Below, piece after piece: positions 10,527 to 40,346 of a stretch of DNA of 41,997 nt (the stretch's first letter is position 1; the number at the start of each line of letters is the position of its first letter). This DNA comes from Longimicrobium sp. (GTDB taxonomy: Bacteria; Gemmatimonadota; Gemmatimonadetes; Longimicrobiales; Longimicrobiaceae), in the NCBI GenBank assembly GCA_036377595.1, contig DASUYB010000163.1, positions 1 through 41,997 of the forward strand. Reading direction: 5' to 3'. The translations under genes were made by a program, and so were the position numbers. The notes below the pieces were generated by a model, which did no database searches, had not been told where the DNA came from, and saw only the letters and a program-made list of their open reading frames with translations.

Positions 10527-10542
10527 GTGATATGAGTGGCGA

Positions 10543-12406: not shown

Positions 12407-12610
12407 TCACAGGACCTGACGCTTGAGAACAATCTCCTGCGAGGGATCGAAATAGATGGGAGCGATTCCGGCAACCTCCCATCCCTGCGATCCCAGCGCA
12501 TTGAGAAGCCCGAGCAGGTCGTTGCCCAGCGATGTTGCTTGCGAGCCTCAGTTTACTCCGTGTGGAGAATTGTCCCGCTGGCCGATCAGGATGTCATATT
12601 AGAATGTCAT
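12407..12610 (-). pseudogene. DUF4177-like small gene with two in-frame stops
   Basis: After a good ribosome site (GAAGAGGAG) an ATG at 12608-12610 opens a 68-codon frame reading MTF, stop (TAA), YDILIGQRDNSPHGVN, stop (TGA), then GSQATSLGNDLLGLLNALG and SQGWEVAGIAPIYF to a final stop at 12407-12409. The last part matches the DUF4177-like pattern (L..LLN.LG..GWE.....). Frame and spacing are preserved throughout, so only two nonsense codons break it. It lies between the MFS gene and the phospholipase D-like gene, all on the minus strand, and probably came with the latter. Stop-codon readthrough is possible but unsupported. Confidence 0.65.
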
Positions 12611-12666
12611 GGTATTCTCCTCTTCAAACGGTGACCGACATGCCAGAAAGGCCGTTGCATGGATGT

Positions 12667-13908: not shown

Positions 13909-13949
13909 CTCGCGCCGGGGATCGCTGGGGGATGGCGGGGAAGGGGAGA

Positions 13950-14669
13950 CTACGGGAGCTCGCGGATGCGGACGTTGCGGTAGGCCACCCACGCCTCGTG
14001 GTCCTGCAGGGCGATGTGCCCGCGTGCCGCGCGCCCGTAGCGCGGCATGGTGGCGAACTTGCTGGCCCGCACGCGCGCCTCCCAGTCGGGGCTGCCCAGC
14101 TCGTATTCCAGCAGCCGCACGCCGTTCATCCAGTGCTCCACGTGGTTGCCACGCACCACGATGCGCGCCGCGTTCCACTCGCCCACGGGGCGGGTGGCGT
14201 CGCGCGCCGGCGCGTACAGCGCGAAGTCGGAGCCGGCCGAGGTGAGCGGGTCGCGGCCGTCGGGATGGCGCGCGTTGTCGAGCACCTGGTACTCCGGGCC
14301 GCTGCGCCAGACGTAGTCGAGCGTGGAGTCTTCCACCACGCGGTAGATGATCCCGCTGTTGCCGCCGGGCGAGATCTTCCACTCCAGCGCCAGCTCGAAG
14401 TTGCCGAACTCCTCGTCGGTGATCAGGTCGCCGCCGGCGCCCACGCGCGTGATGGCGCCGTCCACCACCTGCCAGCCGGCGGGCGCCGCCGCGGCCCGGT
14501 AGCCGCGCCACCCCCGCAGCGTCCGCCCGTCGAACAGGGGCCGCCACCCCTGCGCGTCCTCCGCTGAGGCAGATGGGGGAGGGTCGCCCGGTGGCGAGCC
14601 GCGCCCGCACGACGCGGCGGGAAGGAACGGGAGCGCGAGCAACGCGAGGAGCGCGCGAGAGCGTGTCAT
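13950..14669 (-). CDS. DUF1080 (3-keto-disaccharide hydrolase) lipoprotein
   Basis: The 239-aa protein begins [20 protein letters not shown] followed by Cys, a signal sequence with lipobox, so it should be a lipid-anchored protein outside the inner membrane. The rest matches the DUF1080 / 3-keto-disaccharide hydrolase beta-sandwich: [52 protein letters not shown] and GHIALQDHE. These proteins cleave 3-keto-glycosides after C3 oxidation by a dehydrogenase. Here the GMC pair, the Gfo/Idh/MocA enzyme and the MFS permease lie close by, so a pathway of oxidise, cleave, reduce and import is likely. The precise glycoside is unknown. Confidence 0.92.
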
Positions 14670-14821
14670 GCGAATGGCCGCGGCGATGGGAAGCGTATCG
14701 CGGTGGAGCAGGGAAATCGCGGTCGGGAGAGCCGTTCGCAGGATATTCACGGCTCGGCGGGGGAGCAAGAAATTTCTCCGGGCGGCTGAGCCGGCGCGTC
14801 GCGCCGAATGCAGGAGAGACA

Positions 14822-14859
14822 ACGCGAGGGGAACCGCTTCGCATCGGCCCCCCTCGCGT
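14822..14859. repeat. Hairpin, ACGCGAGGGG arms
   Basis: A 10-bp perfect inverted repeat with an 18-base loop lies in the 302-bp gap 14670-14971, upstream of the DUF1080 gene and immediately beside a longer inverted repeat (14861-14938). It has no T-run. It may be a terminator or part of a composite intergenic repeat. Confidence 0.5.
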
Positions 14860-14860
14860 A

Positions 14861-14938
14861 TCTCCAATGACTCCGATGACCCCGCGTGAGACCCCCGCAC
14901 CGATGAGCCTCACACGGAGTCATCGGAGTCGTCGGAGA
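14861..14938. repeat. Long imperfect inverted repeat (30-nt arms)
   Basis: Arm 14861-14890 (TCTCCAATGACTCCGATGAC, then CCCGCGTGAG) pairs with 14909-14938 with four mismatches around an 18-base loop. The loop-side ends carry GTGAG/CTCAC. Similar CTCAC-(A/G)C-(A/G)GAG ends occur in the long hairpins at 32470-32540 and about 39275-39460. Position after the YdeI-like gene fits a terminator role; the large arms suggest a repeat family. Confidence 0.75.
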
Positions 14939-14971
14939 GATGCGACGCGGGCGCCTGGCCGCGGGACGGGA

Positions 14972-15574
14972 TCACTTCCGCTCGTACTTCCAGTTGCGGC
15001 CCTTGCCCTCGGCGATCCACTCGACGGCGGTGTCGATGCGCTTCTTCCGCGTGGCGTCGGTCTTCGCCTCGGTGATCCACTCGATGTAGTCCTTGCGCTT
15101 GCTCGGTGAGAAGGCGTGGAAGTGATCCAGCGCCGCCGGGTTGGTCTCCAGCGCCGCCACCAGGTCGTCGGGGACGCCGGGCTCCTTGCGCTCCTCCGCC
15201 GGCTTCTCGCGCCGCGGCGCCTTCACCCCCTCGTCGTTCAGCCGCTTCGCCTCGCGCAGGTAGCCGGCCAGCACGTCGTCGGGCGGCAGGTCGGACAGCT
15301 TCGTGATGCGGCCGAAGCTCCCCATCGCGTCCTCCGGCCGCTCCTCGCCGAAGATCAGCCCGTGCTTCCAGAAGTTGAACGCCGCGTGCTCCTTGAACGA
15401 CGCGAGCCCGCAGAACATCCCCTTGTACATGAACGCCGGCATCCCCCACTTGATGTCTTCCTGCACCTCGGGGACGGTGGCGTGCACCAGCTCGCGCAGG
15501 TGCCTCAGGATCGGCCTGGCAAAGTCGGCCGACTTCTCGATGTAGGCGTCTACGCGGGGATCTCGGGTGGACAT
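14972..15574 (-). CDS. YdeI/OmpD-associated family protein
   Basis: The 200-aa protein starts at ATG 15572-15574. Residues about 1-110 match the DUF1801/YdhG-like fold (RVDAYIEKSADFARPIL, then EDIKWGMPAFMYKGMFCG). The C-terminal about 70 residues match the OmdA/YdeI tail (VPDDLVAALETNPAALDHF then SKRKDYIEWITEAK). Members are small cytoplasmic proteins linked to bacteriocin or antimicrobial-peptide tolerance in some bacteria; the biochemical role is not settled. It follows the methyltransferase gene by 38 bp on the same strand. Confidence 0.9.
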   Translation of the reverse strand: MSTRDPRVDAYIEKSADFARPILRHLRELVHATVPEVQEDIKWGMPAFMYKGMFCGLASFKEHAAFNFWKHGLIFGEERPEDAMGSFGRITKLSDLPPDDVLAGYLREAKRLNDEGVKAPRREKPAEERKEPGVPDDLVAALETNPAALDHFHAFSPSKRKDYIEWITEAKTDATRKKRIDTAVEWIAEGKGRNWKYERK

Positions 15575-15612
15575 CGGGGTCGCTCGTCGTGCGGGTGGTG
15601 AAGGTGATGCGG

Positions 15613-16461
15613 TCAGGTGCGCTCGAGCAGCAGGTTGATGGAGAAGCGGCGGAACTCCTCCCGCCGCCGCTCGGACGAGATGCGGGCGAGGAAGGCCCAG
15701 AGCCAGGCCAGGCGCATGTGCCGCTTCAGCCGCAGCGCGTCGTCGAAGGTGCCGCTCCACCACGCCTCGCGCCAGCCGTAGCGGGCGAAGAAGCCCGACC
15801 CCTCCTCGGGCGCGAACTTGAACGGCGCGTTGCCGGCCTTGACCTGCTTTCCCCACGACTTCTGCATCCACTTCATCAGCGCGGGGCTCCCCAGGTCGGT
15901 CAGCCACCAGCGAAACGCGGGCTGCTCGTGCAGCGCCGACGCCAGCGCGGCCACCTCGTCGGCGGAGAGGTAGACGAGCAGCCCCTCGGTGACGACCAGC
16001 GCCTGCCGCGCGCCTTCCGCCACGCGCGCGAACACGCCGGCGCGCTGCACCGCGTCGGACAGGTCGGCGGACACGGCCTCGTAGCGGCAGCGCGGCGTCT
16101 CGCCCTCCATCATCCCGCGCTTGTACTCGGTGATGCCGGGGAGGTCGACATCCACCCAGCGCAGCTCCGGCGGCAGGTCGAGGCGCCACGCGCGGGTGTC
16201 GAGGCCGGCGGCCAGGTTCAGCACCAGGTCGGCGCCGCGGCTGCGCACGCAGTCGAGGATGACCTCGTCGAACACCTGCGTGCGGACGATCATCGGCCAC
16301 GCCATCGACCGCCCCTTCGGCATCGCGCGGACGATGGCCTCGCCGCGCTCGCCGGCCAGCCTGCGCGCCCAGGGATCGCGGAAGTGCGCGTCCGGGCGCT
16401 CCGTCTCCATCGCCCGGTAGACGGCCACCCAGCGCGCGGTGTCGGAGACGTTCTCGATCAT
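15613..16461 (-). CDS. Class I SAM-dependent methyltransferase (LCMT/PPM1-like)
   Basis: The 282-aa protein starts at ATG 16459-16461. It shows the leucine carboxyl methyltransferase-type signature: VSDTARWVAVYRAMETERPD, FRDPWARRLAG, motif I LVLNLAAGLDTRAWRLD at 79-95, then WVDVDLP (acidic residue for SAM) and VVTEGLLVYLS. These enzymes methylate carboxyl or hydroxyl groups of small molecules, often in secondary metabolism; the substrate is unknown. It is divergent from the SRPBCC gene across 118 bp and likely co-transcribed with the YdeI-like gene. Confidence 0.9.
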   Translation of the reverse strand: MIENVSDTARWVAVYRAMETERPDAHFRDPWARRLAGERGEAIVRAMPKGRSMAWPMIVRTQVFDEVILDCVRSRGADLVLNLAAGLDTRAWRLDLPPELRWVDVDLPGITEYKRGMMEGETPRCRYEAVSADLSDAVQRAGVFARVAEGARQALVVTEGLLVYLSADEVAALASALHEQPAFRWWLTDLGSPALMKWMQKSWGKQVKAGNAPFKFAPEEGSGFFARYGWREAWWSGTFDDALRLKRHMRLAWLWAFLARISSERRREEFRRFSINLLLERT

Positions 16462-16579
16462 CCTCGTTCGGGTCGGGGGAGAACGACGGATTGGCGTGGG
16501 AGCGGAGTCGATGGCAGGATATCCGCGGTGTCCGCGCGGGGCAAGCGATTCGTACGCGTCCGACGAGGAGATCCGGGGG

Positions 16580-17077
16580 ATGGTGGAGATCGAGCTGCGG
16601 ACGTTCATCGCCGCGCCGGTGGAGCGCGTGTTCGACCTGTCGCGCAGCATCGACCTGCACCAGCGCTCGACGGCCACGACGCGCGAGACGGCGGTGGCGG
16701 GGCGCACGTCGGGGCTGATCGGGCTGGACGAGACGGTGACCTGGCGGGCGCGGCACCTGGGTGTCACCCAGTACCTCACCAGCCGCATCTCGGGCTACGA
16801 TCGGCCGCGCTGGTTCCGCGACGAGATGGTGCGCGGCGCGTTCGCGTGGATGGAGCACGACCACTGGTTCGACGCGGCCGAGGGCGGCACGGTGCTGCGC
16901 GACCGCTTCCGCTTCGCCGCGCCGCTGGGCCCGCTCGGGCGCATCGCCGAGGCGCTGCTGCTGCGGCGCTACATGACGCGCTTCCTCGAGGCACGCAACG
17001 CCGAGATCAAGCGTGTGGCCGAGTCGGACGCGTGGAGAGAACTTTTGTCGGCAAAAGATGACAGCGGCCCCGGCTAG
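16580..17077 (+). CDS. SRPBCC-family protein (START/Bet v1-like)
   Basis: The 165-aa protein starts at ATG 16580 with GAGGAG nine bases upstream. The N-terminus VEIELRTFIAAPVERVFDLSRSIDLH is the classic first strand and helix of SRPBCC ligand-binding proteins. Later segments GLDETVTWRARHLG, RPRWFRDEMVRGAF and GGTVLRDRFRFAAPLGPLG match the cell-division-inhibitor-like SRPBCC subgroup. It probably binds a hydrophobic small molecule. An in-frame ATG at 16439 would overlap the divergent methyltransferase start and is less likely. Confidence 0.88.
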   Translation: MVEIELRTFIAAPVERVFDLSRSIDLHQRSTATTRETAVAGRTSGLIGLDETVTWRARHLGVTQYLTSRISGYDRPRWFRDEMVRGAFAWMEHDHWFDAAEGGTVLRDRFRFAAPLGPLGRIAEALLLRRYMTRFLEARNAEIKRVAESDAWRELLSAKDDSGPG

Positions 17078-17149
17078 CGGCGAGTGGCCCCCCGTCGGCA
17101 CGAGCCGCGGACGCGCGGGTATGCAACGGATGTGAACGAGGAAGAGGCG

Positions 17150-17638
17150 ATGACGCATCGGTTCACCATCGAGGTACATCGCACTAGGAAGGGCTTCGTT
17201 GCCACTTCGCCCGAGTATCCCCATGCGTGCGGGCGCGGTACCACCCTTGGGTCCGCCGTCGCGCGCCTGGGAGACGAGATCGAGCGAGCCGACAGCCACG
17301 CCGCAACGCAAGGGCAGATCCGGAGCGGTGAGGTGAGCGAAGAGGGTTGCGAATCTCCCCGTCCCGAAGTAAAATGGACACCGTCGAAATCGGATGACAC
17401 ATCCATCGCGGAGACGGTTTCCATGCCTCGACACGAGACGATGCCACTCTCCAGCGGGCGACGTCGCGGGCGGCAGGTGCCCGGCGCGCTCCAGTGGATC
17501 AAGGAACACGCGGACGAATACGCGGGACGCTGGGTGGCCGTGGGTGAAAGCGGCCTGGTCGCGGCGGCGGACAGCTTCGAGGAGCTGCGGAGCCAGCTCG
17601 CCTCGCTGCAGGGAATCGTCGTGACGCAGGTCACATGA
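17150..17638 (+). CDS. HicB-like / DUF5678-like fusion (cassette 2)
   Basis: One uninterrupted frame of 162 aa begins at ATG 17150 behind GAGGAAGAGG. Residues 1-50 (FTIEVHRTRKGFVATSPEYP then GTTLGSAVARLGDEIE) resemble a partial HicB antitoxin fold. Residues about 92-162, from an internal ATG at 17423 that has its own GGAGA, match the 75-aa DUF5678-like protein at 5793 (LQWIKEHADEYAGRWVAVG, then GLVAAADSFEEL). The product may be a fusion, or translation may start at 17423 to give a 71-aa protein like the first cassette. The stop overlaps the protease ATG (ATGA at 17635-17638). The HicB link is tentative. Confidence 0.65.
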   Translation: MTHRFTIEVHRTRKGFVATSPEYPHACGRGTTLGSAVARLGDEIERADSHAATQGQIRSGEVSEEGCESPRPEVKWTPSKSDDTSIAETVSMPRHETMPLSSGRRRGRQVPGALQWIKEHADEYAGRWVAVGESGLVAAADSFEELRSQLASLQGIVVTQVT

Positions 17639-18099
17639 GCCGCCTTGCCGACAGCACCGGATCGTCGTTCGCGACCGGCGAGGCACGGTGCTCTTCCCGG
17701 CCGGCGACGCTCGGCGAGCGCCTCACCCGGCTCTTCGTGGAAATCGCCGTCGGCGACGTAGCGACCGCCGCCGTTCTCGACACGGGGGGCGCGTACCTGG
17801 TGCTCAGCCCCTCCGTTGGAGCCGCGCTGGGGCTGGACGACACGGTTGCGCTGGGCAGGGATCGGATCATGATTCGCGGGTTCGCCCTCGAAGGCACGAT
17901 CCACCGGCTGCCGGTGACGATGCACGCTTCGGCGGGTGAACCGCTGACGTTCGAGGCGACCGCCTTCGTTCCGGAGCTGGATGCCGGGACGCAGTGGATG
18001 CTCCCCAGCTACCTCGGGTGGCAGGGATGTCTGGAGCGGATCCGTTTTGCCATCGATCCCGGTGAGGAACTGATCTACTTCGGCGCGCGGCGGACCTGA
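17635..18099 (+). CDS. Retropepsin-like aspartic protease (cassette 2)
   Basis: The 154-aa protein is a clear paralogue of 6017-6469: both have FATGEAR near the start, AVLDTGGAYL with the D-T-G-G catalytic loop, GEPLTFEATAFVPEL, and PSYLGWQGCL(D/E)RIR, ending in IYFG or VYFG. It is a single-domain clan AA protease expected to act as a dimer in the cytoplasm. It overlaps the DUF5678-like partner by four bases, the same arrangement as cassette 1. Substrate and physiological role are unknown. Confidence 0.82.
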   Translation: MSRLADSTGSSFATGEARCSSRPATLGERLTRLFVEIAVGDVATAAVLDTGGAYLVLSPSVGAALGLDDTVALGRDRIMIRGFALEGTIHRLPVTMHASAGEPLTFEATAFVPELDAGTQWMLPSYLGWQGCLERIRFAIDPGEELIYFGARRT

Positions 18100-18156
18100 A
18101 GTTCGCGGCGCGAGGCCGGGCGGGGCGGGGCAGGGTCCTTGCCTCGCCCCGTTTCC

Positions 18157-18624
18157 ATGCAGACGCTGCTGGCGGTGGACCTGGGCGTGCGGACGGGGCT
18201 GGCGCTGTACGGGGGAGACGGACGGCTGCTGCGCTACCGCTCGCAGAACTTCGGCAGCGCGGCGCGGCTGCGGCGTGCCGTGCCCGCGCTGCTCGACGGC
18301 GAGCGCGACCTGGCGTGGCTGGTGATCGAGGGAGGCGGCCCGCTGGCCGACGCGTGGGAGCGCGAAGCGGCGCGGCGGCGGCTGGGCGTGCGCCGCATCG
18401 GCGCGGAGGAATGGCGGCGCGCGCTGCTCTACCCGCGCGAGCAGCGCACCGGCGCGCAGGCCAAGACCACGGCGGACGGGCTCGCGCGGCGCATCATCGA
18501 GTGGTCGGGCGCGCCGCGGCCCACGTCGCTGCGCCACGACGCGGCGGAAGCCATCCTCGTCGGCTTCTGGGGCGTGCTCGACGTCGGCTGGCTCCCCGAC
18601 ATCCCGCCCGAGCTGCGGCGGTGA
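18157..18624 (+). CDS. Small RuvC/RNase H-fold protein
   Basis: The 155-aa protein begins LLAVDLGVRTGLALYGGDG, the first strand and hairpin of the RuvC-like RNase H fold. Acidic residues D8, E58 (LVIEGGG) and D128/E131 (RHDAAEAILVGFWG) fall in the order D, E, D..E seen in RuvC-type resolvases, so a metal-dependent nuclease is possible. It is shorter than RuvC and lacks wider identity. It lies 57 bp after the protease gene and 72 bp before the toxin-antitoxin pair. The function is unknown; the fold assignment is by motif only. Confidence 0.65.
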   Translation: MQTLLAVDLGVRTGLALYGGDGRLLRYRSQNFGSAARLRRAVPALLDGERDLAWLVIEGGGPLADAWEREAARRRLGVRRIGAEEWRRALLYPREQRTGAQAKTTADGLARRIIEWSGAPRPTSLRHDAAEAILVGFWGVLDVGWLPDIPPELRR

Positions 18625-18661
18625 CCGCCAGACGCGCTGCTCCCTGGCAACCCATTTTCGA

Positions 18662-18682
18662 TGTGATTACATTGTGATTACA
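18662..18682. promoter_or_regulatory. Direct repeat upstream of mazE-like gene (probable operator)
   Basis: TGTGATTACA occurs at 18662-18671 and again at 18673-18682, eleven bases apart, about one helical turn, ending just before the AAGGAGG ribosome site. MazE-type antitoxins normally autoregulate by binding repeated sites here. AT content is locally high, so the promoter probably overlaps. Confidence 0.55.
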
Positions 18683-18696
18683 CCAAGGAGGGAATC

Positions 18697-18954
18697 GTGA
18701 GAGCGCGAATCATTCGGATCGGCAATTCGAAGGGGGTCCGGCTCCCAAAGTCGCTCCTCGAACGGAGTGGGCTGGAGGGAGAAGTGGAGCTCGAGGCGAA
18801 CGACGGCGAGATTATCGTGCGCGCGGCGGAGCACCCGCGTGCGGGCTGGGAGGAGGCGTTCGCGGAAATGAGCGCACGGGGTGACGACGAGTTGCTCGAC
18901 GGTGAGCAGCTCGGCAGTTCCTCGTGGGACGACGAAGAATGGGAGTGGGCGTGA
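18697..18954 (+). CDS. MazE/AbrB-type antitoxin
   Basis: The 85-aa protein starts at GTG 18697 after AAGGAGG. The N-terminus RARIIRIGNSKGVRLPKSLL is the swapped-hairpin AbrB/MazE DNA-binding domain. The C-terminus is acidic (DDELLDGEQLGSSSWDDEEW), as expected of the flexible toxin-neutralising tail. The stop overlaps the toxin GTG by four bases (GTGA), so the two are coupled. It likely represses its own promoter through the direct repeats upstream. Confidence 0.92.
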   Translation: MRARIIRIGNSKGVRLPKSLLERSGLEGEVELEANDGEIIVRAAEHPRAGWEEAFAEMSARGDDELLDGEQLGSSSWDDEEWEWA

Positions 18955-19268
18955 AGCGGTTCGACGTCTATCTCACGCGGCTCGACCCCACAAAGGGTAG
19001 CGAGATCCAGAAGACACGCCCCTGCCTGATCATCTCTCCCAACGAGATGAATCGTCCCTTGAAGACCGTGATCATAGCGCCGATGACCACCCGCGGACGT
19101 CCATATCCCAGCAGGGTCGATTGCGTGTTCGGCGGGAAGAACGGGCAGGTTGCGCTGGACCAGATCCGAACCGTCGACAAGACGCGATTGGGACAACGCC
19201 TGGGTGATCTCGATCGACCTACTCGCAAGCTCGTGCTGGACACGCTGGCGCGGATGTTCGCTCCCTAG
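18951..19268 (+). CDS. mazF: MazF/PemK-family mRNA interferase toxin
   Basis: The 105-aa protein starts at GTG 18951, within the antitoxin stop. It matches PemK/MazF toxins: FDVYLTRLDPTKGSEIQKTRP, CLIISPNEMN, VIIAPMTTRGRPYPSRV, and GQVALDQIRTVDKTRL. These are ribosome-independent endoribonucleases that cut mRNA at short sites; activity is held in check by the upstream MazE-like protein. Length and key Arg/Thr residues look intact, so the pair is probably functional. Confidence 0.94.
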   Translation: MKRFDVYLTRLDPTKGSEIQKTRPCLIISPNEMNRPLKTVIIAPMTTRGRPYPSRVDCVFGGKNGQVALDQIRTVDKTRLGQRLGDLDRPTRKLVLDTLARMFAP

Positions 19269-19281
19269 CCATGAAATTCGA

Positions 19282-19310
19282 AGCGGCTCCCGATGATCTC
19301 GAGAGCCGCT
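19282..19310. terminator. Hairpin after toxin gene
   Basis: AGCGGCTC (19282-19289) pairs with GAGCCGCT (19303-19310) around a 13-base loop, between the convergent toxin and response regulator genes. It lacks a strong T-run. It probably terminates both. Confidence 0.5.
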
Positions 19311-19343
19311 GATGTTGACGGGGTGCGGAACGTGCCGTGCGCG

Positions 19344-19718
19344 TCAGGGCTCATCGCCCAGGAAGCGGCGGACCTCCTCGAGGACGCGGCGCGGCTCCAC
19401 CGGCTTGGCCAGGTAGCCGTCGCAGCCGACCTCCACCGCGCGCTCGCGGTCGGCGGCCAGCGCGTGCGCCGTCAGCGCGATGATGGGGATCGACGCGGTG
19501 GCGGAGTCGGCCTTGAGGGCGGCGGTGGCCTCCCAGCCGTCCATCACCGGGATCGACACGTCCATCAGGATCAGGTCCGGGTGGTGCTCGCGGGCCATCC
19601 GCACCCCCTCGCCACCGTCGCCGGCCAAGAGCACGCGGTAGCCGAAGTGCTCCAGCATCGTGCGGTACACGATGCGGTTGTCTTCGTGGTCCTCGACGAG
19701 CAGGATGGTTCGGCTCAC
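19344..19718 (-). CDS. Single-domain response regulator (CheY-like)
   Basis: The 124-aa protein starts at GTG 19716-19718 with the motif ILLVEDHEDN. It has the receiver residues E9/D10, phospho-acceptor D53 (LILMDVS), T83 and K105 (LAKP). There is no output domain. No kinase lies in the window, so it is an orphan; such proteins often sit in phosphorelays (histidine kinase-associated). It is divergent from the XRE gene across about 90 bp. Confidence 0.93.
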   Translation of the reverse strand: MSRTILLVEDHEDNRIVYRTMLEHFGYRVLLAGDGGEGVRMAREHHPDLILMDVSIPVMDGWEATAALKADSATASIPIIALTAHALAADRERAVEVGCDGYLAKPVEPRRVLEEVRRFLGDEP

Positions 19719-19807
19719 GGGCTGGGCGGGATCGGGTCGTGAGGGGAATCGCCCGCGGGAGCGGCAGCCTTGCCGGGCGCGCGTCAATCTGCTACGGTGT
19801 GTTCGAC

Positions 19808-20347
19808 ATGTCAAATGCGGTTCGGCTACCCGAATCGGGCACGAAGCGGGACGAGGCCCCCCGCGCGGCCCTCGACGCAGCGGCTAAATCCTTGCAGGGG
19901 CGTCAGATGCGACCTGAGCAGGGGATCCCGTTGGCCGGAGGTGGGGGGCTGCCTTCCGAATCGAGACCGGGCCCGGTGCGCCGCAAGGCGGTGGAGCTTT
20001 CGGCCTTTTTCGAGCGGCTGCGCCAGATCCTGGACGACCGCGGCCTGTCGCAGGCCGACCTGGCGCGCGAGCTGGGCGTGGGCGTGGCCACGGTGAGCGA
20101 GTGGTTCACCCGCGGCCGCGTGCCCAACGGCGACGTGATGCTGCGCCTGCCGGGCGCGCTGCGGGTCAACGGCCACTGGCTGCTGACCGGCGAGGGCCCG
20201 CGCGAGCGCGAGCCGGCGCCGCAGGGCGACCCGTACCTTCGCGGCGCGGGCGACGCCATCCAGCGGCTCGCGCAGGCGCTGGACGACGTGGCGCGGCGCT
20301 TCGGCGCGCCGGCCGGCGGGCCCGATCCGTCTCCCGAATCGACCTGA
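19808..20347 (+). CDS. XRE-family transcriptional regulator
   Basis: The 179-aa protein has a helix-turn-helix at about 68-130: FFERLRQILDDRGLSQADLA then LGVGVATVSEWFTRGRVPNG. The first about 55 residues are low-complexity, and the last about 40 are polar. ATG 19808 is used, but ATG 19907 (cgtcag before it) would still keep the whole DNA-binding domain, and no ribosome site decides. It is divergent from the response regulator and 90 bp upstream of the formamidase gene on the same strand. Its target is unknown. Confidence 0.8.
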   Translation: MSNAVRLPESGTKRDEAPRAALDAAAKSLQGRQMRPEQGIPLAGGGGLPSESRPGPVRRKAVELSAFFERLRQILDDRGLSQADLARELGVGVATVSEWFTRGRVPNGDVMLRLPGALRVNGHWLLTGEGPREREPAPQGDPYLRGAGDAIQRLAQALDDVARRFGAPAGGPDPSPEST

Positions 20348-32469: not shown

Positions 32470-32540
32470 CTCACGCAGAGTTAGCAGGGTCAGCAGAGAA
32501 CCAGCCGTTCTCTCTGCTGACCCTGCTAACTCTGCGTGAG
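32470..32540. terminator. Perfect 30-bp inverted repeat between convergent genes
   Basis: Arm 32470-32499 (CTCACGCAGAGTTAGCAGG, then GTCAGCAGAGA) pairs exactly with 32511-32540 around an 11-base loop. It separates the MoxR operon from the convergent Hsp70 operon. A T-rich stretch (AAAGTCTTTT) follows on the right. It is far longer than needed for termination and shares its CTCAC ends with other hairpins in the window. Confidence 0.9.
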
Positions 32541-32563
32541 ATAAAGTCTTTTCCAGATTCTGA

Positions 32564-34378
32564 CTATTGCGCGGAGTTGTACCGGTCGATCCGGGAGTTG
32601 AGCGCCCGAAGCGCGGTTTCGTATTCCGCGGTCTCCCGTTGCACCTGCGACTGGACCTCGTTGTATCTGTCGATCAGCGCGTTGTGGCGCTCGATCAGGC
32701 GGCGGTAGCGCGGATAGTCCCCTGACGCGATCGTGCCGCCCGTCGCGCGGCCCTCGATCGCCGAGATCTGGGACTTCAGGTCGTCGATGGCGTTGCCGAT
32801 GGAGTCCTGCCGGGCCTGCAGCGTCTGCACCTGCGACCCCATCCACCGCACGCGGAATCGTTCGCTCTCGATCCTGGCCTGCTCGCCCGTCGCTTCGCCC
32901 TCCTCCGACGGAGAGCCGGTCGAGCCCGGGGAGTAGGAAGACGACAGGTCCCGCAGCGCGCTCGGCCTCTGCGGGGACGTGCCGTAGTCGCTGCCGTAGC
33001 TCGATCCCGACGAGTAGTAGCTGCTCGAGGAGGGCGTCGATGGGGTGAGCGCGACCGCGAGGACGAAGAAGAAGATCACCACGAGCGAGGCGGCCAGGTG
33101 GATCTTGTTCGCCTTCGAGAACGGCACCTTCCCCAGGAAGCGCCACGACCGGTCGCCGTCGCGGATCACGCGGTAGCAGGCCAGCGGGATCACGGGGATG
33201 AAGATCCCCACCAGGTAGAGCGTGGCCACGTGCGAGCGCGTCTGCGCGTCGGGGTCGCGCTCGCCGTACAGCATGGTGCCGAAGCCGTTGAGGGTGAACA
33301 GCGGCGGCGCGCTGGAGATCGGCTTCATGGGGCCGAACACCCGCAGCTGCGAGCAGTGCTGGCGGATGGTCGAGTTGAGGCCCGCCAGCCGCCCCTCGCC
33401 CCAGAAGCAGCGGTGCGTGCGCAGCATCTGCTCGGCGTCGGCGTGGTTCTTCTGGCTCAGCAGCGACGCCACCTGCGCCAGCGACCGGTAGTCGCCGTCC
33501 TGGGGCTGCAGCTCGCCGCTGGCGCGCGCGACCGCGGCGGCCAGCGTGAACGCCCCGGCGGCGAGCAGCTGGCACGCCAGGTCGCCCAGCTTCCACGCGG
33601 TGTACTCGCGCTGCTGCTCGTCGACCGCCACCACCCGGATGCGCCGCAGCACCGCGTCGGCGCGCTGCGGGTCGTTGCGGACGAGCTGCACCTCCAGGAG
33701 CTTGGTGAAGTAGCGCAGGTCCTCGAAGTCGACCGTGCCGTCGTGCCGGATCGCCTTCTCCAGCACCTCCTCGGCGGCGTCCAGGTCCTTGCGGTCGATG
33801 TACAGGTCGGCCAGCGCCACGTAGTAGCTGGTCACGTCCTCGCCCTCGGCGTCGGCGGCCAGCACGGCGCGCCGGAACATCGACTCCGCGTCGGCGATGC
33901 GCCCCAGCCGCGCGTAGGCGTGCCCCGCGTTGCCGAACCACGCGGGCGAGGGCTGCTCGCGCTGCAGCAGCTGCTCGAACAGCGGAAGCGCGTGCCCGGG
34001 CTTCTCCTGGTAGAGGAAGCAGAGGCCCAGCCAGTTGCGCGCGTAGTCGAGCGTGGGGTCCTCGGCCAGCACCTGCTTCAGGTGCTGCTCCGCCTCGGGA
34101 TACCGCTGCGCCTCCATCGCGGCCGAGGCCAGCCGCAGCAGCCGCTGCACGGCGGCGCTGGGCGCGCGGTCGTACTCGGCGCGCGAGGCGGCGTCGTTCA
34201 GCACCTCGTACGCCTCGCGGATGCGCTTGAACTCCTCGGGCGCGCGCTCGGGGGGATAGCGGCGCAGGAGCGCGCGGTAGGCGGCGCGCACCTCGTCGCG
34301 GCTGGCCGTGCGCTCCACCCCCAGGCGCTCGTACAGGTCCTCGGCGTGGATGTCGATGTGGATGGTGGTCGTGGACAT
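32564..34378 (-). CDS. J-domain/TPR membrane protein with degenerate HPD
   Basis: The 604-aa protein has an N-terminal J domain (DLYERLGVERTASRDEVRAA then FKRIREAYEVLND). The usual HPD tripeptide reads PPE (RRYPPERAP), so canonical stimulation of Hsp70 is doubtful. Residues about 60-290 form TPR-like helices. Two membrane helices (VATLYLVGIFIPVIPLA; IHLAASLVVIFFFVLAVAL) are followed by a Ser/Tyr-rich stretch and a coiled coil. It is 17 bp after dnaK, so co-transcribed. It likely anchors this Hsp70 set to the inner membrane. Confidence 0.88.
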   Translation of the reverse strand: MSTTTIHIDIHAEDLYERLGVERTASRDEVRAAYRALLRRYPPERAPEEFKRIREAYEVLNDAASRAEYDRAPSAAVQRLLRLASAAMEAQRYPEAEQHLKQVLAEDPTLDYARNWLGLCFLYQEKPGHALPLFEQLLQREQPSPAWFGNAGHAYARLGRIADAESMFRRAVLAADAEGEDVTSYYVALADLYIDRKDLDAAEEVLEKAIRHDGTVDFEDLRYFTKLLEVQLVRNDPQRADAVLRRIRVVAVDEQQREYTAWKLGDLACQLLAAGAFTLAAAVARASGELQPQDGDYRSLAQVASLLSQKNHADAEQMLRTHRCFWGEGRLAGLNSTIRQHCSQLRVFGPMKPISSAPPLFTLNGFGTMLYGERDPDAQTRSHVATLYLVGIFIPVIPLACYRVIRDGDRSWRFLGKVPFSKANKIHLAASLVVIFFFVLAVALTPSTPSSSSYYSSGSSYGSDYGTSPQRPSALRDLSSSYSPGSTGSPSEEGEATGEQARIESERFRVRWMGSQVQTLQARQDSIGNAIDDLKSQISAIEGRATGGTIASGDYPRYRRLIERHNALIDRYNEVQSQVQRETAEYETALRALNSRIDRYNSAQ

Positions 34379-34395
34379 CTGTGTGCTCCGGGGCT

Positions 34396-36204
34396 TCAGT
34401 CGAGTTCGAAGAGGGTGTCGATCAATTGCTGCTCGCGCTCCGCCACGCGCTCCGCGTCGCCCGCCGCGAGCGCGGCCTTCAGCTCGCTGGCCAGGTGGTC
34501 CACCCGCGCCCGGGCGCCGGGCTCCAGCTGCGCCATCCGCGTCTCCGCGTGGCGCAGCAGCGCGGCGACCTTCGCGTACAGCGGCGAGCGCTTCCACGCC
34601 TCGCCGTCGCCGCCGGCGGCGTCATCGCTTCCGGCGGCCGGCGCCGCGCGTGGGGCCGGCGCGGCCGCGGCGGTGAGGGCGCCGGGGTGGGCATCGTCGA
34701 TCCGTGCGCGGGCGCGCGCCTTCTCGTCGTCCGACATCACCGCGCGGTCGGGCTGCAGCCGGAGCCCCGTCTCGCGCCCGCGGGTGTCGCGGGCGACCAC
34801 CTCGATGATCCCGTCGAGGTTGTACGACATCTGGATCTCGAAGGGCTGCCCCTCGGGGCCGGGGGCCGAGATCTGGTGCAGGAAGTCGCCGACCGGGGTG
34901 TTGTCACGGACGAAGCGCGCGTCGCCCTGGAAGAGCTTCACGTGCACCTGCTGCTGGAAGTCGGACGAGGTGAAGTACGTCTCCGTGCGCGTGCAGGGGA
35001 TGGTGGTGTTGCGGCGGATGATGGGGCTGAACACCCCGCCCACCTTCTGCCCGTGCTCGTCGCTCAGCACCTCGACGCCGAAGGTGAAGGCCGACACGTC
35101 GGTGATCACCACCTCGCCCGGGTCGATCTGGCGCGCCTCGATTCCCGACAGCACCGCCGCGCCCAGCGCCACCGCCTCGTCGGGGCTGACCTCGGTGCGC
35201 AGCGTGCGCCCGCCGAAGTACTCGCTCACGAAGCGGCGCACCAGCGGGGTGCGGGTGGAGCCGCCCACCATCAGCACGGTGTCGATCTCCTCCGCGCGCA
35301 GCCCCTTCTCCGCCAGCGCCTGGTCCAGCTGCGCGCGCGTCGATTCCACCAGGTCGAAGACCAGCGACTCGAACTCGTCGCGGGTGACGGCGCGCTCGAA
35401 GTCGATGGGGTCGCCCTCGGGGCTCATCCCCGCGTTCTCGATCATCACCTGCACCGACTCCTGCGACGACAGCTCCTCCTTCGCGTGCTTCGCGGCCGCC
35501 TTCAGCTTCTGCCGGTTGCGGGGACTGGCGAAGAGGTCGACGCCCGCGGCACGCATGCACTCGCGGCGCAGGAAGTCCATCAGGCGCTCGTCGAGGTCCT
35601 TGCCGCCCAGCTCGGCGTTGCCGGTGCTGGCCAGCACGTCGAGGTAGCCCTCGCTGAGCTCCAGCACGGTCACGTCCAGCGTGCCGCCGCCCAGGTCGTA
35701 GACCACGATCTTCTCCTCCACCCCGGGGCGCTCGATCCCGTACGCCAGCGCGGCCGCGGTGGGCTCGTTGATCAGCCGGCGGCAGCGCACCCCGGCGATC
35801 TCGGCCGCGTCCTGGGTGGCGCGGCGCTGCCGGTCGTTGAAGTACGCGGGGACGGTGATGACCGCCTCGGTGACGGGCTCGCCGAGGTACTTCTCCGCCT
35901 CCTGCTTGAGGTGGCGGAGGATGCGGGCGGAGATCTCCTGCGGGGTGAACTCCTCGGCGCCGATGCTGACGCGCTCCTCGCCCCCCATCTTCCGCTTGAC
36001 CTCCTGCACCGCGCGGTCGGGCTTGGGGATCAGCAGCTTTTCCGCGCTCTCGCCCACGCGCAGCTGGCCGTCGGTGTCCACGGCCACCACCGAGGGAAGG
36101 ATTCCCTGCACCGATCCGGCGACCTCGCGGATCAGCATCGGTCTGCCGTTCTTCAGCACGGCCACCTCGGAGGTCGAGGTGCCCAGGTCGATCCCCACGA
36201 TCAT
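34396..36204 (-). CDS. dnaK: Hsp70 chaperone (DnaK paralogue)
   Basis: The 602-aa protein starts MIVGIDLGTSTSEVAVL and has the Hsp70 phosphate and adenosine motifs (VYDLGGGTLDVTVL, VLMVGGSTRTPLV) and the linker-proximal RQIDPGEVVITDVSAF. The C-terminal lid is shorter and Ala/Pro-rich compared with housekeeping DnaK (638 aa), so this is probably a specialised paralogue. It binds unfolded clients with ATP, with GrpE and a J protein in the same operon. Confidence 0.95.
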   Translation of the reverse strand: MIVGIDLGTSTSEVAVLKNGRPMLIREVAGSVQGILPSVVAVDTDGQLRVGESAEKLLIPKPDRAVQEVKRKMGGEERVSIGAEEFTPQEISARILRHLKQEAEKYLGEPVTEAVITVPAYFNDRQRRATQDAAEIAGVRCRRLINEPTAAALAYGIERPGVEEKIVVYDLGGGTLDVTVLELSEGYLDVLASTGNAELGGKDLDERLMDFLRRECMRAAGVDLFASPRNRQKLKAAAKHAKEELSSQESVQVMIENAGMSPEGDPIDFERAVTRDEFESLVFDLVESTRAQLDQALAEKGLRAEEIDTVLMVGGSTRTPLVRRFVSEYFGGRTLRTEVSPDEAVALGAAVLSGIEARQIDPGEVVITDVSAFTFGVEVLSDEHGQKVGGVFSPIIRRNTTIPCTRTETYFTSSDFQQQVHVKLFQGDARFVRDNTPVGDFLHQISAPGPEGQPFEIQMSYNLDGIIEVVARDTRGRETGLRLQPDRAVMSDDEKARARARIDDAHPGALTAAAAPAPRAAPAAGSDDAAGGDGEAWKRSPLYAKVAALLRHAETRMAQLEPGARARVDHLASELKAALAAGDAERVAEREQQLIDTLFELD

Positions 36205-36253
36205 TGCGAACCTCTCCTCACAAGTGGGTGCTCAGAAGGTCTGTCGAGTTTAC

Positions 36254-36380
36254 GAGTCCTGAGTCCTGAGTCCTAAGTCCTAAGTCCTAAGTCCTAAGTC
36301 CTGGGTCTTGGGTCCTGAGTAATTGCATCAACGCACGTTACAGGGGCTTGTTCACTCAGGACCTGGGACTCAGGACTGAC
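36254..36380. repeat. Heptamer tandem repeat with inverted partner
   Basis: Nine or so 7-bp units (GAGTCCT x3, AAGTCCT x4, GGGTCTT, GGGTCCT) run from 36254 to 36316. Reverse-complement units (ACTCAGG, ACCTGGG, ACTCAGG) follow at 36354-36376, so the whole can fold. It lies between the GrpE stop and the DnaK start in the same operon and may pause or attenuate transcription. Confidence 0.85.
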
Positions 36381-36384
36381 TTAC

Positions 36385-36960
36385 TCAGCGGGTGGTGATC
36401 ACTTCGGCGCGCCGCAGCACGGCGCCGTGAAAGCGGAAGCCGCGGCGGATGACCTGCACGATCTGGTAGGGCGCCTGGTCGCCGTGGCGCTCGGCGGTGT
36501 CGAGCGCGTCGTGCTCCTCGGCGTCGAACGCCTCGCCCAGGGCGGGGATCTCGGTGAGCCCCACCTGCTCCAGGATGCGCAGCGCCCGGACACTGAAGCG
36601 CTCCAGGTGCGCCAGCCACTTGGGCTCGCCGATCTGCCGCGCCAGCACGGCCACGTCGTCGAGCGTGTCGACCAGCTCCAGGAGCCGGCGCGCGGTGGCG
36701 GCGGCCTGGTCGCGCAGCCGCCCGGCCTCGCGGCGGTGCTCCTCGCCGCGCTCCTGCGCCTCGGCCAGCTGCGCCTCGAGCAGCTCCACCGTCTGGTTGA
36801 TGCGCAGCTGCTGCTTCCCCAGCCGCGCCAGGTTGCGCGTCATCTCGCCCCACTGCCCGGCCAGGTCGTCGTCGGCGGGGATCTCCATGTCCGCGCCGTC
36901 CAGGTCGATGGGCACGAGGCGGGCGATCTCGTCGCGCGGGGAGAAGGCGGTCGCGGTCAT
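36385..36960 (-). CDS. grpE: GrpE nucleotide-exchange factor
   Basis: The 191-aa protein has a long N-terminal helix (LRINQTVELLEAQLAEAQER), then LLELVDTLDDV, and the beta-domain LTEIPALGEAFDAEEHDALD and YQIVQVIRRGFRFHGAVLRRAEV, which match GrpE. It releases ADP from the DnaK of this operon. Its ATG overlaps the stop of the TPR gene by four bases (ATGA). Confidence 0.88.
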   Translation of the reverse strand: MTATAFSPRDEIARLVPIDLDGADMEIPADDDLAGQWGEMTRNLARLGKQQLRINQTVELLEAQLAEAQERGEEHRREAGRLRDQAAATARRLLELVDTLDDVAVLARQIGEPKWLAHLERFSVRALRILEQVGLTEIPALGEAFDAEEHDALDTAERHGDQAPYQIVQVIRRGFRFHGAVLRRAEVITTR

Positions 36961-38111
36961 TCGGTCCCCCGTTCGGCGATGCGCCGGGTGATGCGGTTGG
37001 CGAAGATGGATTCGGGATGGTCGCGCAGGAGGAGCGCGGCGGTCCCGCGCGCCTCGCCGGGGCGGGCGGCGCGTGCCTGCGCGCGGGCCAGGAGATACAG
37101 CGCGTCGTCGCGGTAGTACGCGTCCGCGGGAACGGTGGCGGCGCCGGACAGCTCCGTCGCCGCGCGCTGCCAATCTCCACGGTCGAACGCGTCTCGCCCG
37201 CGCCGGTACGCCGCGAAGTCGAACGGCGCGGCAAGCGCCGCCATCCGCGCGGGGGGCAGCGGGATCGCCGGTGCTGGCGCGGACGCGGGTGCGGGCGCGA
37301 CGACGGGGCTCGATGCGTTTGCCTGCGGGAGATCCGCCCCGGCGCGATACCCGAGCCTGTAGGTCAGGAAGATGGTAATGAGCACCGAGCCGGCCCACGC
37401 CGCCGCCAGCGGGAGGGTGGCGCGGGCACGCGGCGGCGAACTGGAGGACGGCGCGGCGACCGGCGCGGGCGGATCGGACGCGATCAAATCGGGCGCGGCG
37501 ATCGGCACCGGCGCATCGGACGCGGGCAGGTTCGCGAGCCAGCGCTGCAGCGGCAGATCGTCGCTGCAGATCGCCAGGCCCGCCTCGCACGCGGCGCGCG
37601 CGGTGGTGACGTCCCCGCGCTCCGCGGCGAGCAGCGCACGGAGGCGGTGGGCGGGGAGAAGGTCGGGGAGACGCTCCAGCGCCTCGTTCGCGAGGGATGC
37701 GGCGACCTCGCCGTCTCCGCCGTGTGCCTCGGCGAGTGCCTGGTTGTAGAGGCTGAGGGCTTCGCGGACGCCGTCGCGTTCCAGCGGCGCGGGCTCGTCC
37801 GTCCCCACGCCGCGCCAAGCCCGCGCGGCGGCCCCCGCCTCGCCGAGACAGAGCGCGACCAGGGACAGCACCCGCGCGGCGTCCGGCTCCGGCGCGGCCA
37901 GCCGTGACGCGCGCCGCAGCAGCGCGAGCGCGCGATGCAGCTCGCCGTCGCGCGCGGCCGCCATCCCGGCGCGCTGGAGGGCAGCCGCGCGGCCGCGCAG
38001 CGACTCGATCAGCCGCGCGCACCTGCAATCGTCCGCCGGCGCGCCGCACGCCGCGCACGCCTCGGCGGCGGCGGGGACGGACAACGCAGTCACGTCGGCA
38101 AGGACATCCAA
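36957..38111 (-). CDS. TPR membrane protein with Cys-rich N-terminus
   Basis: A 384-aa frame from TTG 38111 (or GTG 38093; neither has a good ribosome site). Residues 19-31 read CAACGAPADDCRC, a likely metal knuckle. TPR-like helices follow (ALALLRRASRLA; SLYNQALAEAHGG; ARAACEAGLAIC), then one membrane helix (LAAAWAGSVLITIFLTYRLG), a Pro/Ala linker and a final TPR pair (GRDAFDRGDWQRAATELSGA). It heads the GrpE-DnaK-J operon and probably recruits clients at the membrane. Confidence 0.8.
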   Translation of the reverse strand: MDVLADVTALSVPAAAEACAACGAPADDCRCARLIESLRGRAAALQRAGMAAARDGELHRALALLRRASRLAAPEPDAARVLSLVALCLGEAGAAARAWRGVGTDEPAPLERDGVREALSLYNQALAEAHGGDGEVAASLANEALERLPDLLPAHRLRALLAAERGDVTTARAACEAGLAICSDDLPLQRWLANLPASDAPVPIAAPDLIASDPPAPVAAPSSSSPPRARATLPLAAAWAGSVLITIFLTYRLGYRAGADLPQANASSPVVAPAPASAPAPAIPLPPARMAALAAPFDFAAYRRGRDAFDRGDWQRAATELSGAATVPADAYYRDDALYLLARAQARAARPGEARGTAALLLRDHPESIFANRITRRIAERGTE

Positions 38112-38428
38112 GGGTCGGCAGGGGAAAAAAGGTCCATGCGTACCTGGGGCGACATTTCGCTGATTGTGTTGATCTGCAACGCTTGTGGCGGGAACTGGCG
38201 CTCCGTTGCGGAGCGGGACCGGCAGGACTTCCGACGGGCTGTCGTCCGGCCGGGGATAAGGGCCGGGCGATGTGGCGTCACGAATCTATCGATCCGGAGC
38301 GCCCCGAGAAAGTAGTGTCGTGCCGGGCGACGCGAAACCGCCTTGCTTGCATCCCCTTGCGCGCGCATGATGTACGTTCGGGCGCGAACGGGTCGTGCCC
38401 GGCGCATCCCCGAACGCGGAGGTGACCC
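38112..38428. promoter_or_regulatory. Divergent region upstream of peptide cluster
   Basis: This 317-bp gap separates the minus-strand TPR start from the first Cys-rich peptide. No gene is seen. A weak promoter-like pair (TTGCTT, 17 bases, CATGAT; about 38341-38370) lies upstream of a good GGAGGTG site. Control of the peptides is otherwise unknown. Confidence 0.3.
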
Positions 38429-38638
38429 ATGAAGAAGCTTCGGCTGAATCCGGACGAGCTCTCGGTCTCGCCCTTCGAGGTGGAGGCGAAGGCGGAGCCG
38501 GCCGGCACCGTGATGGGCGCCGACGCGTCGTCGCCGCGCAACTGCACGGGGCCGGACGCAAGCTGCGGCTACCCGTTCACCTGCGGCGGCACGAGCTGTC
38601 CCTCGGGCTACCCCGTCTGCCGCGCCTGCACCATCTGA
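38429..38638 (+). CDS. Cys-rich peptide 1, candidate RiPP precursor
   Basis: 69 aa, ATG after GGAGGTGACCC. Leader MKKLRLNPDELSVSPFE is followed by AEPAGTVMGAD and a Cys-rich end with six Cys (CTGPDASCGYPFTCGGTSC, then PSGYPVCRACTI). MKKLxL...LxVxxFE leaders are known from many bacterial ribosomal peptides, including class I lanthipeptide-like precursors. No signal peptide and no modifying enzyme nearby. Confidence 0.82.
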   Translation: MKKLRLNPDELSVSPFEVEAKAEPAGTVMGADASSPRNCTGPDASCGYPFTCGGTSCPSGYPVCRACTI

Positions 38639-38683
38639 GGCGCGGGTGATGCGGTGGATGCAACTCCGAAACGTGGAGGACCC

Positions 38684-38902
38684 ATGAAGAAGCTTCGGCT
38701 GAACCCGGAAGAGCTCTCGGTCGAGCCTTTCGAGATGAAAACGGCCGCGGAGGTGAGCGGCACCGTGCTGGGCGCCGACGCCTCGACGCCGCGGCACTGC
38801 ACCGGACCCGCGGACAGCTGCGGCTATCCCGCGACCTGCGGCGGCACGAGCTGCGACTCGGGCTACCCGCTCTGCTACCAGTGCACGGCCAAGGTGTGCT
38901 GA
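38684..38902 (+). CDS. Cys-rich peptide 2, candidate RiPP precursor
   Basis: 72 aa, ATG after GTGGAGGACCC. Leader MKKLRLNPEELSVEPFEM, then SGTVLGADAST and a seven-Cys end (CTGPADSCGYPATCGGTSC, DSGYPLCYQCTAKVC). It is a close duplicate of peptide 1 (CGYPxTCGGTSC shared). An ATG at 38654 in the same frame lacks a better site and would spoil the leader. Confidence 0.82.
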   Translation: MKKLRLNPEELSVEPFEMKTAAEVSGTVLGADASTPRHCTGPADSCGYPATCGGTSCDSGYPLCYQCTAKVC

Positions 38903-38965
38903 GCGGCACGGCGGCGTGGCGCGAATGCGTCGCGCCCGAAGCACGGCTCCGACAAGGAGGGAACG

Positions 38966-39193
38966 ATGAAGAAGCTGCGACTGGATCCCGATGCGCTCGC
39001 GGTCGAGCCGTTCGAGCTCCAACCCGCCGTCCAGGCGAACGGCACGGTCCTGGCCAACGACGTGTCGGGGCCCGGATGCCCCACCTCGGTGCAGTACAGC
39101 TGCGGGTATCCGCGCACCTGCGGCGGAACGAGCTGCGACTCGGGGTACCCGGTCTGCTACCAGTGCACGGCCATGAACTGCACGCCCGCCTGA
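38966..39193 (+). CDS. Cys-rich peptide 3, candidate RiPP precursor
   Basis: 75 aa, ATG after AAGGAGGGAACG. Leader MKKLRLDPDALAVEPFEL, then NGTVLANDVSG and a seven-Cys end (CPTSVQYSCGYPRTCGGTSC, DSGYPVCYQCTAMNCTPA). It is the most diverged copy in the middle but keeps the core. The three together form a tandem family on one probable transcript. Confidence 0.82.
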   Translation: MKKLRLDPDALAVEPFELQPAVQANGTVLANDVSGPGCPTSVQYSCGYPRTCGGTSCDSGYPVCYQCTAMNCTPA

Positions 39194-39220
39194 TCACCTG
39201 AAGCGGGCGGCATCATCTGA

Positions 39221-39261
39221 GAAGCAGGGCGGCAGCGGAGGTCTCGCTGCCGCCCTGCTTC
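39221..39261. terminator. Perfect 17-bp hairpin after peptide cluster
   Basis: GAAGCAGGGCGGCAGCG (39221-39237) pairs exactly with 39245-39261 around a 7-base loop, 28 bp after the third peptide stop. Only a few T follow. It is the likely terminator of the peptide transcript. Confidence 0.75.
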
Positions 39262-39274
39262 TCCGTGTACCGCT

Positions 39275-39460
39275 CCGATATCATACCAATTCCGAGGATT
39301 CAGTGTGCATTCCGACATCCTCAAAGAATGACTCACACGGAGGGAACGGAGGTAACGGAGGGACTGAACGCGATCGGAGTTCCTCCGTTACCTCCGTGTG
39401 ATTCTTCAGTCAGGAACATGGGAATGCACGGTAGATCCTGAGAAACGGTATCATATCAGG
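39275..39460. repeat. Long inverted repeat (MITE-like), about 186 bp
   Basis: The left half (CCGATATCATACC, then CAGTGTGCATTCC, AAGAATG, TCACACGGAGG) is mirrored on the right (CCTCCGTGTGA, ATTCTT, GGGAATGCACGG, GGTATCATATCAGG), so nearly the whole element can fold into one stem. The inner arms also repeat AACGGAGG. The right end covers the stop codon of the acetyltransferase gene at 39456. It may be a non-autonomous mobile element or a large terminator. Confidence 0.75.
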
Positions 39461-39893
39461 AGTTTCCGGAATCCAGCCGCTTCATCAGGAAGTGGCGCGA
39501 GTAGCCGGGCGGGAAGTCGTCGAGGCGGCCGAACTCCGTGAAGCCGAGCCTGAGGTAGAACTCCGGCGCCTGGAAGGTGAAGGTGTCGAGCCACATCCCG
39601 CGGAAGCCGCGGCGGCGCGCCTCCTCCTCGGCGCGGCGCATCAGCGCGGCGCCGTGCCCCTGCCCGCGGTACGCGTCGTCGACGTACAGGATCTGCACGA
39701 ACATCCATCCCATCAGGGCGTCGGCGATCAGCCCACCCACCACGGCGCCGGACGCGTCGCGCAGGAAGAAGCGCAGCGTCTCGTACCGGGCATCCTTCAC
39801 CACGCGCAGGTTGAACGCGGTCAGGCGCTCGTCGAGCGCGCGGACGTCCTCGGCGGGCGGGTCCTGTTCCAGCGTGATGGTCAGGTCGGACAT
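39456..39893 (-). CDS. GNAT-family acetyltransferase
   Basis: The 145-aa protein has the GNAT acetyl-CoA loop QILYVDDAYRGQGHGAALM (R-G-x-G-H-G) and the late strand DTFTFQAPEFYLRLGFTEFG. It closely resembles the next gene upstream (39915-40346), 21 bp away, so the two arose by tandem duplication. Substrates are unknown. They could modify peptides or small molecules; no link to the Cys-rich peptides is shown. Confidence 0.93.
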   Translation of the reverse strand: MSDLTITLEQDPPAEDVRALDERLTAFNLRVVKDARYETLRFFLRDASGAVVGGLIADALMGWMFVQILYVDDAYRGQGHGAALMRRAEEEARRRGFRGMWLDTFTFQAPEFYLRLGFTEFGRLDDFPPGYSRHFLMKRLDSGNS

Positions 39894-39914
39894 GGGGGAG
39901 ATGATGGTCGGCCG

Positions 39915-40346
39915 TCAGCCTTGGCCGAGCTGCTTGGCCAGGAAGACGCGCGCGAAGCCGGCCGGGTAGTCGTCCAGCCGGCCGAACTCGCGGTAGCCGA
40001 GCTTCCGGTAGAACTCCGGCGCCTGAAAGCTGAAGGTGTCGACCCACGCGGAGTGGCAGCCGTGCGTGCGGGCCTCGTCCTCGGCGCGGCGCATGAGCTC
40101 CACGCCGTGGCCCCCGCCGCGGTGCGCGTCGGCGATCCAGAGGATTCGCACGTACATCCACCCCATGTAGATCTCCGCGAACAGCCCGCCGGCGATCGCG
40201 CCGTCCTCGTCACGAAGGAACAGCCGTACGGACGCGCCCTTGTCGAAGGGAACGACGCTGTGGTTGAACTCGCTCAACCCGCGGACGAGCGTGTTCAGAT
40301 CATCCAGCGGCCCCTCTGGCTCGGAGGTGATGGTCAGGTTCGGCAT
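39915..40346 (-). CDS. GNAT-family acetyltransferase (tandem paralogue)
   Basis: The 143-aa protein shows the acetyl-CoA loop RILWIADAHRGGGHGVELM (R-G-G-G-H-G) and DTFSFQAPEFYRKLGYREFG, the same layout as its neighbour. It starts at ATG 40344-40346 with no strong ribosome site visible. Function unknown beyond N- or O-acetyl transfer. Confidence 0.92.
   Translation of the reverse strand: MPNLTITSEPEGPLDDLNTLVRGLSEFNHSVVPFDKGASVRLFLRDEDGAIAGGLFAEIYMGWMYVRILWIADAHRGGGHGVELMRRAEDEARTHGCHSAWVDTFSFQAPEFYRKLGYREFGRLDDYPAGFARVFLAKQLGQG

Follow-up and report, generated by a model that had tools for sequence, protein, structure and literature searches.

A tandem trio of probable class I lanthipeptide precursors belongs to a dispersed precursor repertoire in Longimicrobium

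We analysed a stretch of 41,997 nucleotides from Longimicrobium sp. (the window), which carries three tandem genes for Cys-rich peptides (the trio; Table 1). The trio probably encodes orphan class I lanthipeptide precursors (LanA) with a pinensin-type leader, which would guide the peptides in trans to a split LanB dehydratase and a LanC cyclase encoded on another contig of the same genome. The homology of the leader, its co-occurrence with the enzymes, the content of the enzyme operon and purifying selection on the cores are all observed, and together they make this the best explanation.

Three tandem genes for Cys-rich peptides

The preliminary description of this DNA had reported three tandem Cys-rich open reading frames with a common leader and core and 6–7 Cys residues, and both the reading frames and their alignment confirm this. 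Identity with the middle peptide is 72% and 64% for the outer two. Invariant residues occupy 38 columns of the alignment and include MKKLRL(N/D)P, PFE, GTV at residues 26–28 (numbering of peptide 2) and the core motif CGYPxTCGGTSCxSGYPxC. All three are short precursors with an N-terminal leader and a Cys/Ser/Thr-rich C-terminal core, as expected for class I lanthipeptide precursors. Peptides 2 and 3, like peptide 1, are each preceded at a distance of a few bases by a GGAGG Shine-Dalgarno-like site.

In another species of the genus, the syntenic locus (contig C61 of genome G003) contains four trio-like copies with 59–87% identity, and the UvrD and GNAT genes are likewise found next to them. Between species, the pN/pS values of the trio cores are 0.30, 0.34 and 0.15, and the cores are thus under purifying selection. 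Given the syntenic copies and this selection, we regard the trio as real genes. When peptide 2 alone was used as a query against the named genomes no relatives were found, and the spread of the core was therefore taken from a search of 395 genomes of the phylum. Within that set the CGYP core was restricted to the window's own genome (G000), G001 and G003.

The trio is flanked by Hsp70, GrpE and TPR genes on one side and by two GNAT acetyltransferase genes and UvrD on the other. As regards RiPP-forming enzymes, the earlier statement that the trio has no modifying enzyme next to it is right. Neither LanB nor LanC is encoded in the window flanks of the trio, such adjacency being usual but not required for a precursor of this class. 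The first flank consists of a block (32500–38111) of a divergent Hsp70 (34396–36204), a GrpE-like protein and a TPR protein. This block is missing from the syntenic locus in G003, where the flanking genes are otherwise collinear, and its products were for this reason rejected as unlikely partners of the trio. The GNAT genes (39456–40346) are tandem paralogues convergent with the trio; of these, G003 retains one copy next to its peptides.

A perfect hairpin (Table 1), which is a probable bidirectional terminator, separates the trio from the convergent GNAT gene. Since it lacks a T run it cannot be called a textbook terminator, and it does not appear in the output of the terminator scan. The proposal that the trio has a terminator of its own thus holds as regards the 20-bp stem and is weakened on these two counts. 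A second inverted repeat, CACGGAGG...CCTCCGTG, is located at 39325–39415, in the gap that separates the hairpin from the GNAT gene. The 445 kb of G000 DNA examined contained 15 occurrences of the short motif CACACGGAGG.

Table 1. Features of the trio locus (window coordinates) and of the candidate enzyme operon on contig C103 of the same genome
Feature	Location	Strand	Remarks
Shine-Dalgarno-like GGAGG region, 5' of peptide 1	38416..38423	+	direct sequence
Precursor peptide 1	38429..38638	+	69 aa, 6 Cys; leader ~1-30, core ~31-69
Precursor peptide 2	38684..38902	+	72 aa, 7 Cys; start ATG at 38684
Precursor peptide 3	38966..39193	+	75 aa, 7 Cys
Perfect 20-bp GC-rich hairpin	39219..39263	.	-54.1 kcal/mol for 86-nt stretch, z -6.9
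Lant_dehydr_N protein	C103 ORF 89004-92468		split LanB, start approximate (simple script)
Lant_dehydr_C	C103 92449-93480		split LanB, start approximate
LanC	C103 93488-95602		zinc-ligand motifs; start approximate
Several precursors	C103 between 95694 and ~100500
ABC exporter	C103 101085-102896
HlyD-type protein	C103 102995-104215
Subtilase-type protease	C103 ~104179-105333		motifs VIDSG, HGTA, GTSFAAP

The trio leader is homologous to leaders of enzyme-linked precursors

Searches with the trio against NCBIfam and Pfam returned no match at E values up to 1, the pinensin leader model NF038180 included. The trio fails the cut-off of this model (24 bits), which several other loci in G000 exceed; at E values up to 1 the model matches 22 of 48 same-leader peptides from G000 and related genomes. 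The leaders follow the consensus MKKLxL-x4-L-x-V-x-(S/P)F...GTVxG/A. We also used a profile built solely from the leaders of 15 precursors that are adjacent to LanB/LanC, drawn from several phyla. This enzyme-adjacent profile matched peptides 1, 2 and 3 with E values of 9.5e-9, 6.4e-10 and 3.1e-10, respectively, and the rest of the window's 291 open reading frames gave no score. In the control with 6,000 shuffled trio sequences, no E value was better than 0.54. The trio leader is therefore homologous to the leaders of LanB/LanC-adjacent precursors, as expected of a class I lanthipeptide precursor, and its assignment to a ribosomal peptide family gains support. One feature counts against our preferred explanation, namely that the trio leader has PF where the enzyme-linked leaders have SF.

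In named genomes found by LanC similarity, precursors with the same leader occur directly downstream of LanC in Gemmatimonadota, Ignavibacteriales, Melioribacteraceae and Acidobacteria. Examples beside LanC are L143:8503-8805 (Ignavibacteriales), L144:12978-13304 (Melioribacteraceae) and L146:2509-2829 (Acidobacteria). The cores from Ignavibacteriales and Melioribacteraceae contain repeated NTCA/DTC-type units.

Precursors with the same leader are dispersed over the genome

A search of G000 with peptide 2 revealed dozens of peptides that share its leader and have quite different cores. A profile of 28 leaders, run against the G000 contigs, identified at least 150 distinct precursors on 54 contigs, all with E values of 1.3e-6 or below, this total being a lower bound. 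The peptide search indicated 14 further candidate places. At the DNA level, each of the 150 listed precursors proved to be an intact and distinct open reading frame of 54–126 aa (median 73), and only 9 are located within 12 kb of LanB/LanC. G000 is a draft genome with an estimated contamination of 4.8%, and the same pattern recurs in G001, G003 and G009 (1% contamination). Leader matches in these close relatives number at least 150 in G003, 140 in G001 and 76 in G009; three of the ten genus members have no leader match at the threshold used.

The G000 cores are rich in the residues from which lanthionines could be formed. Cys accounts for 15.6% and Ser plus Thr for 19% of core residues, at least three Cys residues are present in 147 of 149 cores, and Ser plus Thr equal or outnumber Cys in 144 of 149. 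Cys is in excess at positions +1 and +5 after Ser/Thr (z 16.5 and 12.6), but we do not take this spacing as proof because Cys–Cys periodicity could cause it. The number of Cys residues is even in 89 cores and odd in 60, which is weak evidence. The cores fall into 101 groups at an E value of 1e-3, and the group that contains the trio includes just one other G000 peptide (C103:54523-54738).

The leader co-occurs with the split dehydratase

The preliminary description would have been contradicted by a lack of co-occurring enzymes in every genome, and this is clearly not what we observed. Across 61 related genomes, the leader and Lant_dehydr_C were present together in 10 and both absent from 51, two isolated leader matches with E values above 0.1 being discounted (Fisher p 1e-11, the genomes being phylogenetically non-independent).

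These results also bear on the possibility that the trio leader serves for targeting or export only, and that the undehydrated core folds with disulfides or binds metal via its conserved Cys residues. In its favour, the trio has no enzyme beside it; moreover, the CGYPxTCGGTSCxSGYPxC core is unusually conserved between paralogues and species, unlike the other cores with their approximately 100 groups. Nevertheless, the trio leader matches enzyme-adjacent leaders, and genomes that lack the split dehydratase have essentially no genes with this leader. Furthermore, peptides 2 and 3 each have an odd number of Cys residues (seven). We consider this possibility unlikely.

Candidate processing enzymes

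The trio's genome encodes LanB dehydratases and LanC proteins with zinc ligands on contigs C103 and C98, as expected for a class I lanthipeptide system. The C103 operon contains the Pfam domains PF04738, PF14028 and PF05147 and is complete for LanB, LanC, exporter and protease. It had been suggested that the enzymes act in trans, and this operon supports the view that the likely enzymes lie elsewhere in the genome. The C103 LanC retains the zinc-ligand motifs WCHG and LCHG (Cys/Cys-His), and the closest solved structure to its profile is the LicM2 cyclase domain. For the subtilase, the Pfam match was obtained on the G009 homologue, and the C103 copy was judged by its catalytic motifs. C39 peptidase-transporters were also considered as leader proteases and set aside as uninformative, since each of the ten genus members has them, whether or not it also has leaders.

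From the lanthipeptide reading we infer the following route for the trio, including the action of the enzymes on it and any role of the product. The leader, through its MKKLxL-x4-L-x-V-x-(S/P)F...GTVxG/A consensus, would recruit the split dehydratase and LanC (C103:89.0-95.6 kb). The Lant_dehydr_N protein would glutamylate Ser/Thr residues and the separate Lant_dehydr_C protein would eliminate the glutamate, so that split LanB and LanC could together convert Ser/Thr–Cys pairs of the CGYPxTCGGTSCxSGYPxC core to (methyl)lanthionine rings. Export of the product may then fall to the ABC exporter and HlyD protein (C103:101.1-104.2 kb), and removal of the leader, with a cleavage site predicted near GTVxG/A, to the subtilase (C103:104.2-105.3 kb). 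In this way a single small enzyme set would serve at least 150 genome-dispersed precursors, as ProcM does for prochlorosins.

A second operon, on contig C98, also encodes LanC, an ABC exporter and a split LanB including Lant_dehydr_C, and two precursors are located approximately 10 kb from it. Its LanC reads LCCG in place of the LCHG of the C103 protein, which corresponds to the Cys-Cys-Cys zinc-ligand set of the promiscuous ProcM cyclases (PMC11251773). It is conceivable that C98 rather than C103 supplies the cognate enzymes. However, G001 and G003 have the trio core and at least 140 precursors, and their sole Lant_dehydr_C gene is in a C103-type operon, whereas a single precursor is present in G007, whose LanC resembles that of C98. 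We regard a role for C98 as the cognate operon as doubtful. LCCG replaces LCHG in the LanC proteins of G000:C98 (L094:1501-2583), G007:C30, G009:C30, G001:C28 and G003:C25.

Modification of the trio by another enzyme class (YcaO or SPASM radical SAM), or its decoration by the neighbouring GNAT proteins, is very improbable: G000 and G003 both keep a GNAT gene next to the peptides, but the GNAT genes run towards the peptides from the far side of the hairpin and the CGYP-core loci of G001 lack this neighbourhood, while YcaO gave no matches in G000, G001 and G009 and SPASM radical SAM none in G001 and G003, although G000, G001 and G003 all have the CGYP core, and these absences led us to reject both classes.

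Comparison with known lanthipeptide systems

The leader type of the G000 paralogues is that of the pinensin family (Chitinophaga; NF038180; family I 17 of PMC7268733). Pinensin LanB is likewise split on two polypeptides, as in the C103 and C98 operons (PMC7268733). Walker et al. (PMC7268733) remark that LanC proteins of the pinensin type show a relationship to the cyclase domains of class II (LanM) enzymes, and the similarity of the C103 LanC to LicM2 is in line with this remark. The comparison with pinensins covers leader type and enzymes. The trio is unmatched by NF038180 and is thus not a member of that curated family. In contrast to the compact pinensin cluster in Bacteroidota, at least 150 precursors are scattered over G000, a member of Gemmatimonadota.

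In the prochlorosins of Prochlorococcus and Synechococcus (PMC10783134, PMC9872173), a conserved leader is likewise combined with hypervariable Cys/Ser/Thr cores. Their precursor genes are also numerous, single or in tandem, and far from the gene for the modifying enzyme ProcM, and G000 shows the same dispersal. ProcM, however, is a class II enzyme, a single bifunctional LanM that acts on precursors with a Nif11-type leader, whereas G000 has the separate split LanB and LanC of class I. The Cys/Cys-His zinc site of the C103 LanC is a further difference. No Nif11 Pfam match was found among the 48 same-leader members. Given the separate LanB and LanC and a leader of other than Nif11 type, the trio peptides are not prochlorosins.

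The enzymes and the pinensin-like leader type were known already; what is new is the scale, at least 150 precursors compared with a published maximum, as far as we found, of 83 per genome, these being of class II (Synechococcus MIT9509, PMC10783134). Our search of the open-access literature turned up no account of precursors dispersed in this way in Gemmatimonadota. The published report on Longimicrobium terrae, a cultured member of the Longimicrobiaceae with which we compared G000 by that report alone, gives three lanthipeptide clusters predicted by antiSMASH and mentions clusters only, without dispersed precursors (PMC7291104). The suggestion that the trio represents an undescribed peptide system needs qualification: its leader superfamily is partly named, in that NF038180 matches many paralogues though not the trio, while the scale and dispersal are, as far as we found, undescribed.

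It seems reasonably likely that G000 harbours a class I counterpart to the prochlorosins, with one or two highly promiscuous operons for split LanB and LanC. These would process at least 150 precursors with largely unrelated, dispersed cores, the largest per-genome repertoire that we have found, a few cores such as CGYPxTCGGTSC being held under purifying selection. Until now, the combination of many dispersed precursors with few enzyme copies has been known chiefly from marine cyanobacteria, whose enzymes are of another type, and the natural one-enzyme-many-substrates lanthipeptide systems that we found described are of class II (ProcM). If the counterpart is real, a class I split LanB with a separate cyclase would act on at least 150 substrates from about 100 core groups, and such promiscuity would not depend on a fused LanM. 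The precursors would then also form a ready natural substrate panel for engineering. Precursors far from LanC fall outside the search of Walker et al. (PMC7268733), and a large peptide repertoire would be invisible to cluster-based mining of this kind, which considers few genes around LanC.

Elsewhere in G000, the gene for a LanB-like protein has those for a nonribosomal peptide synthetase and an ABC exporter as neighbours (L106, G000:C1:4001-24000, at approximately 8800-20000).
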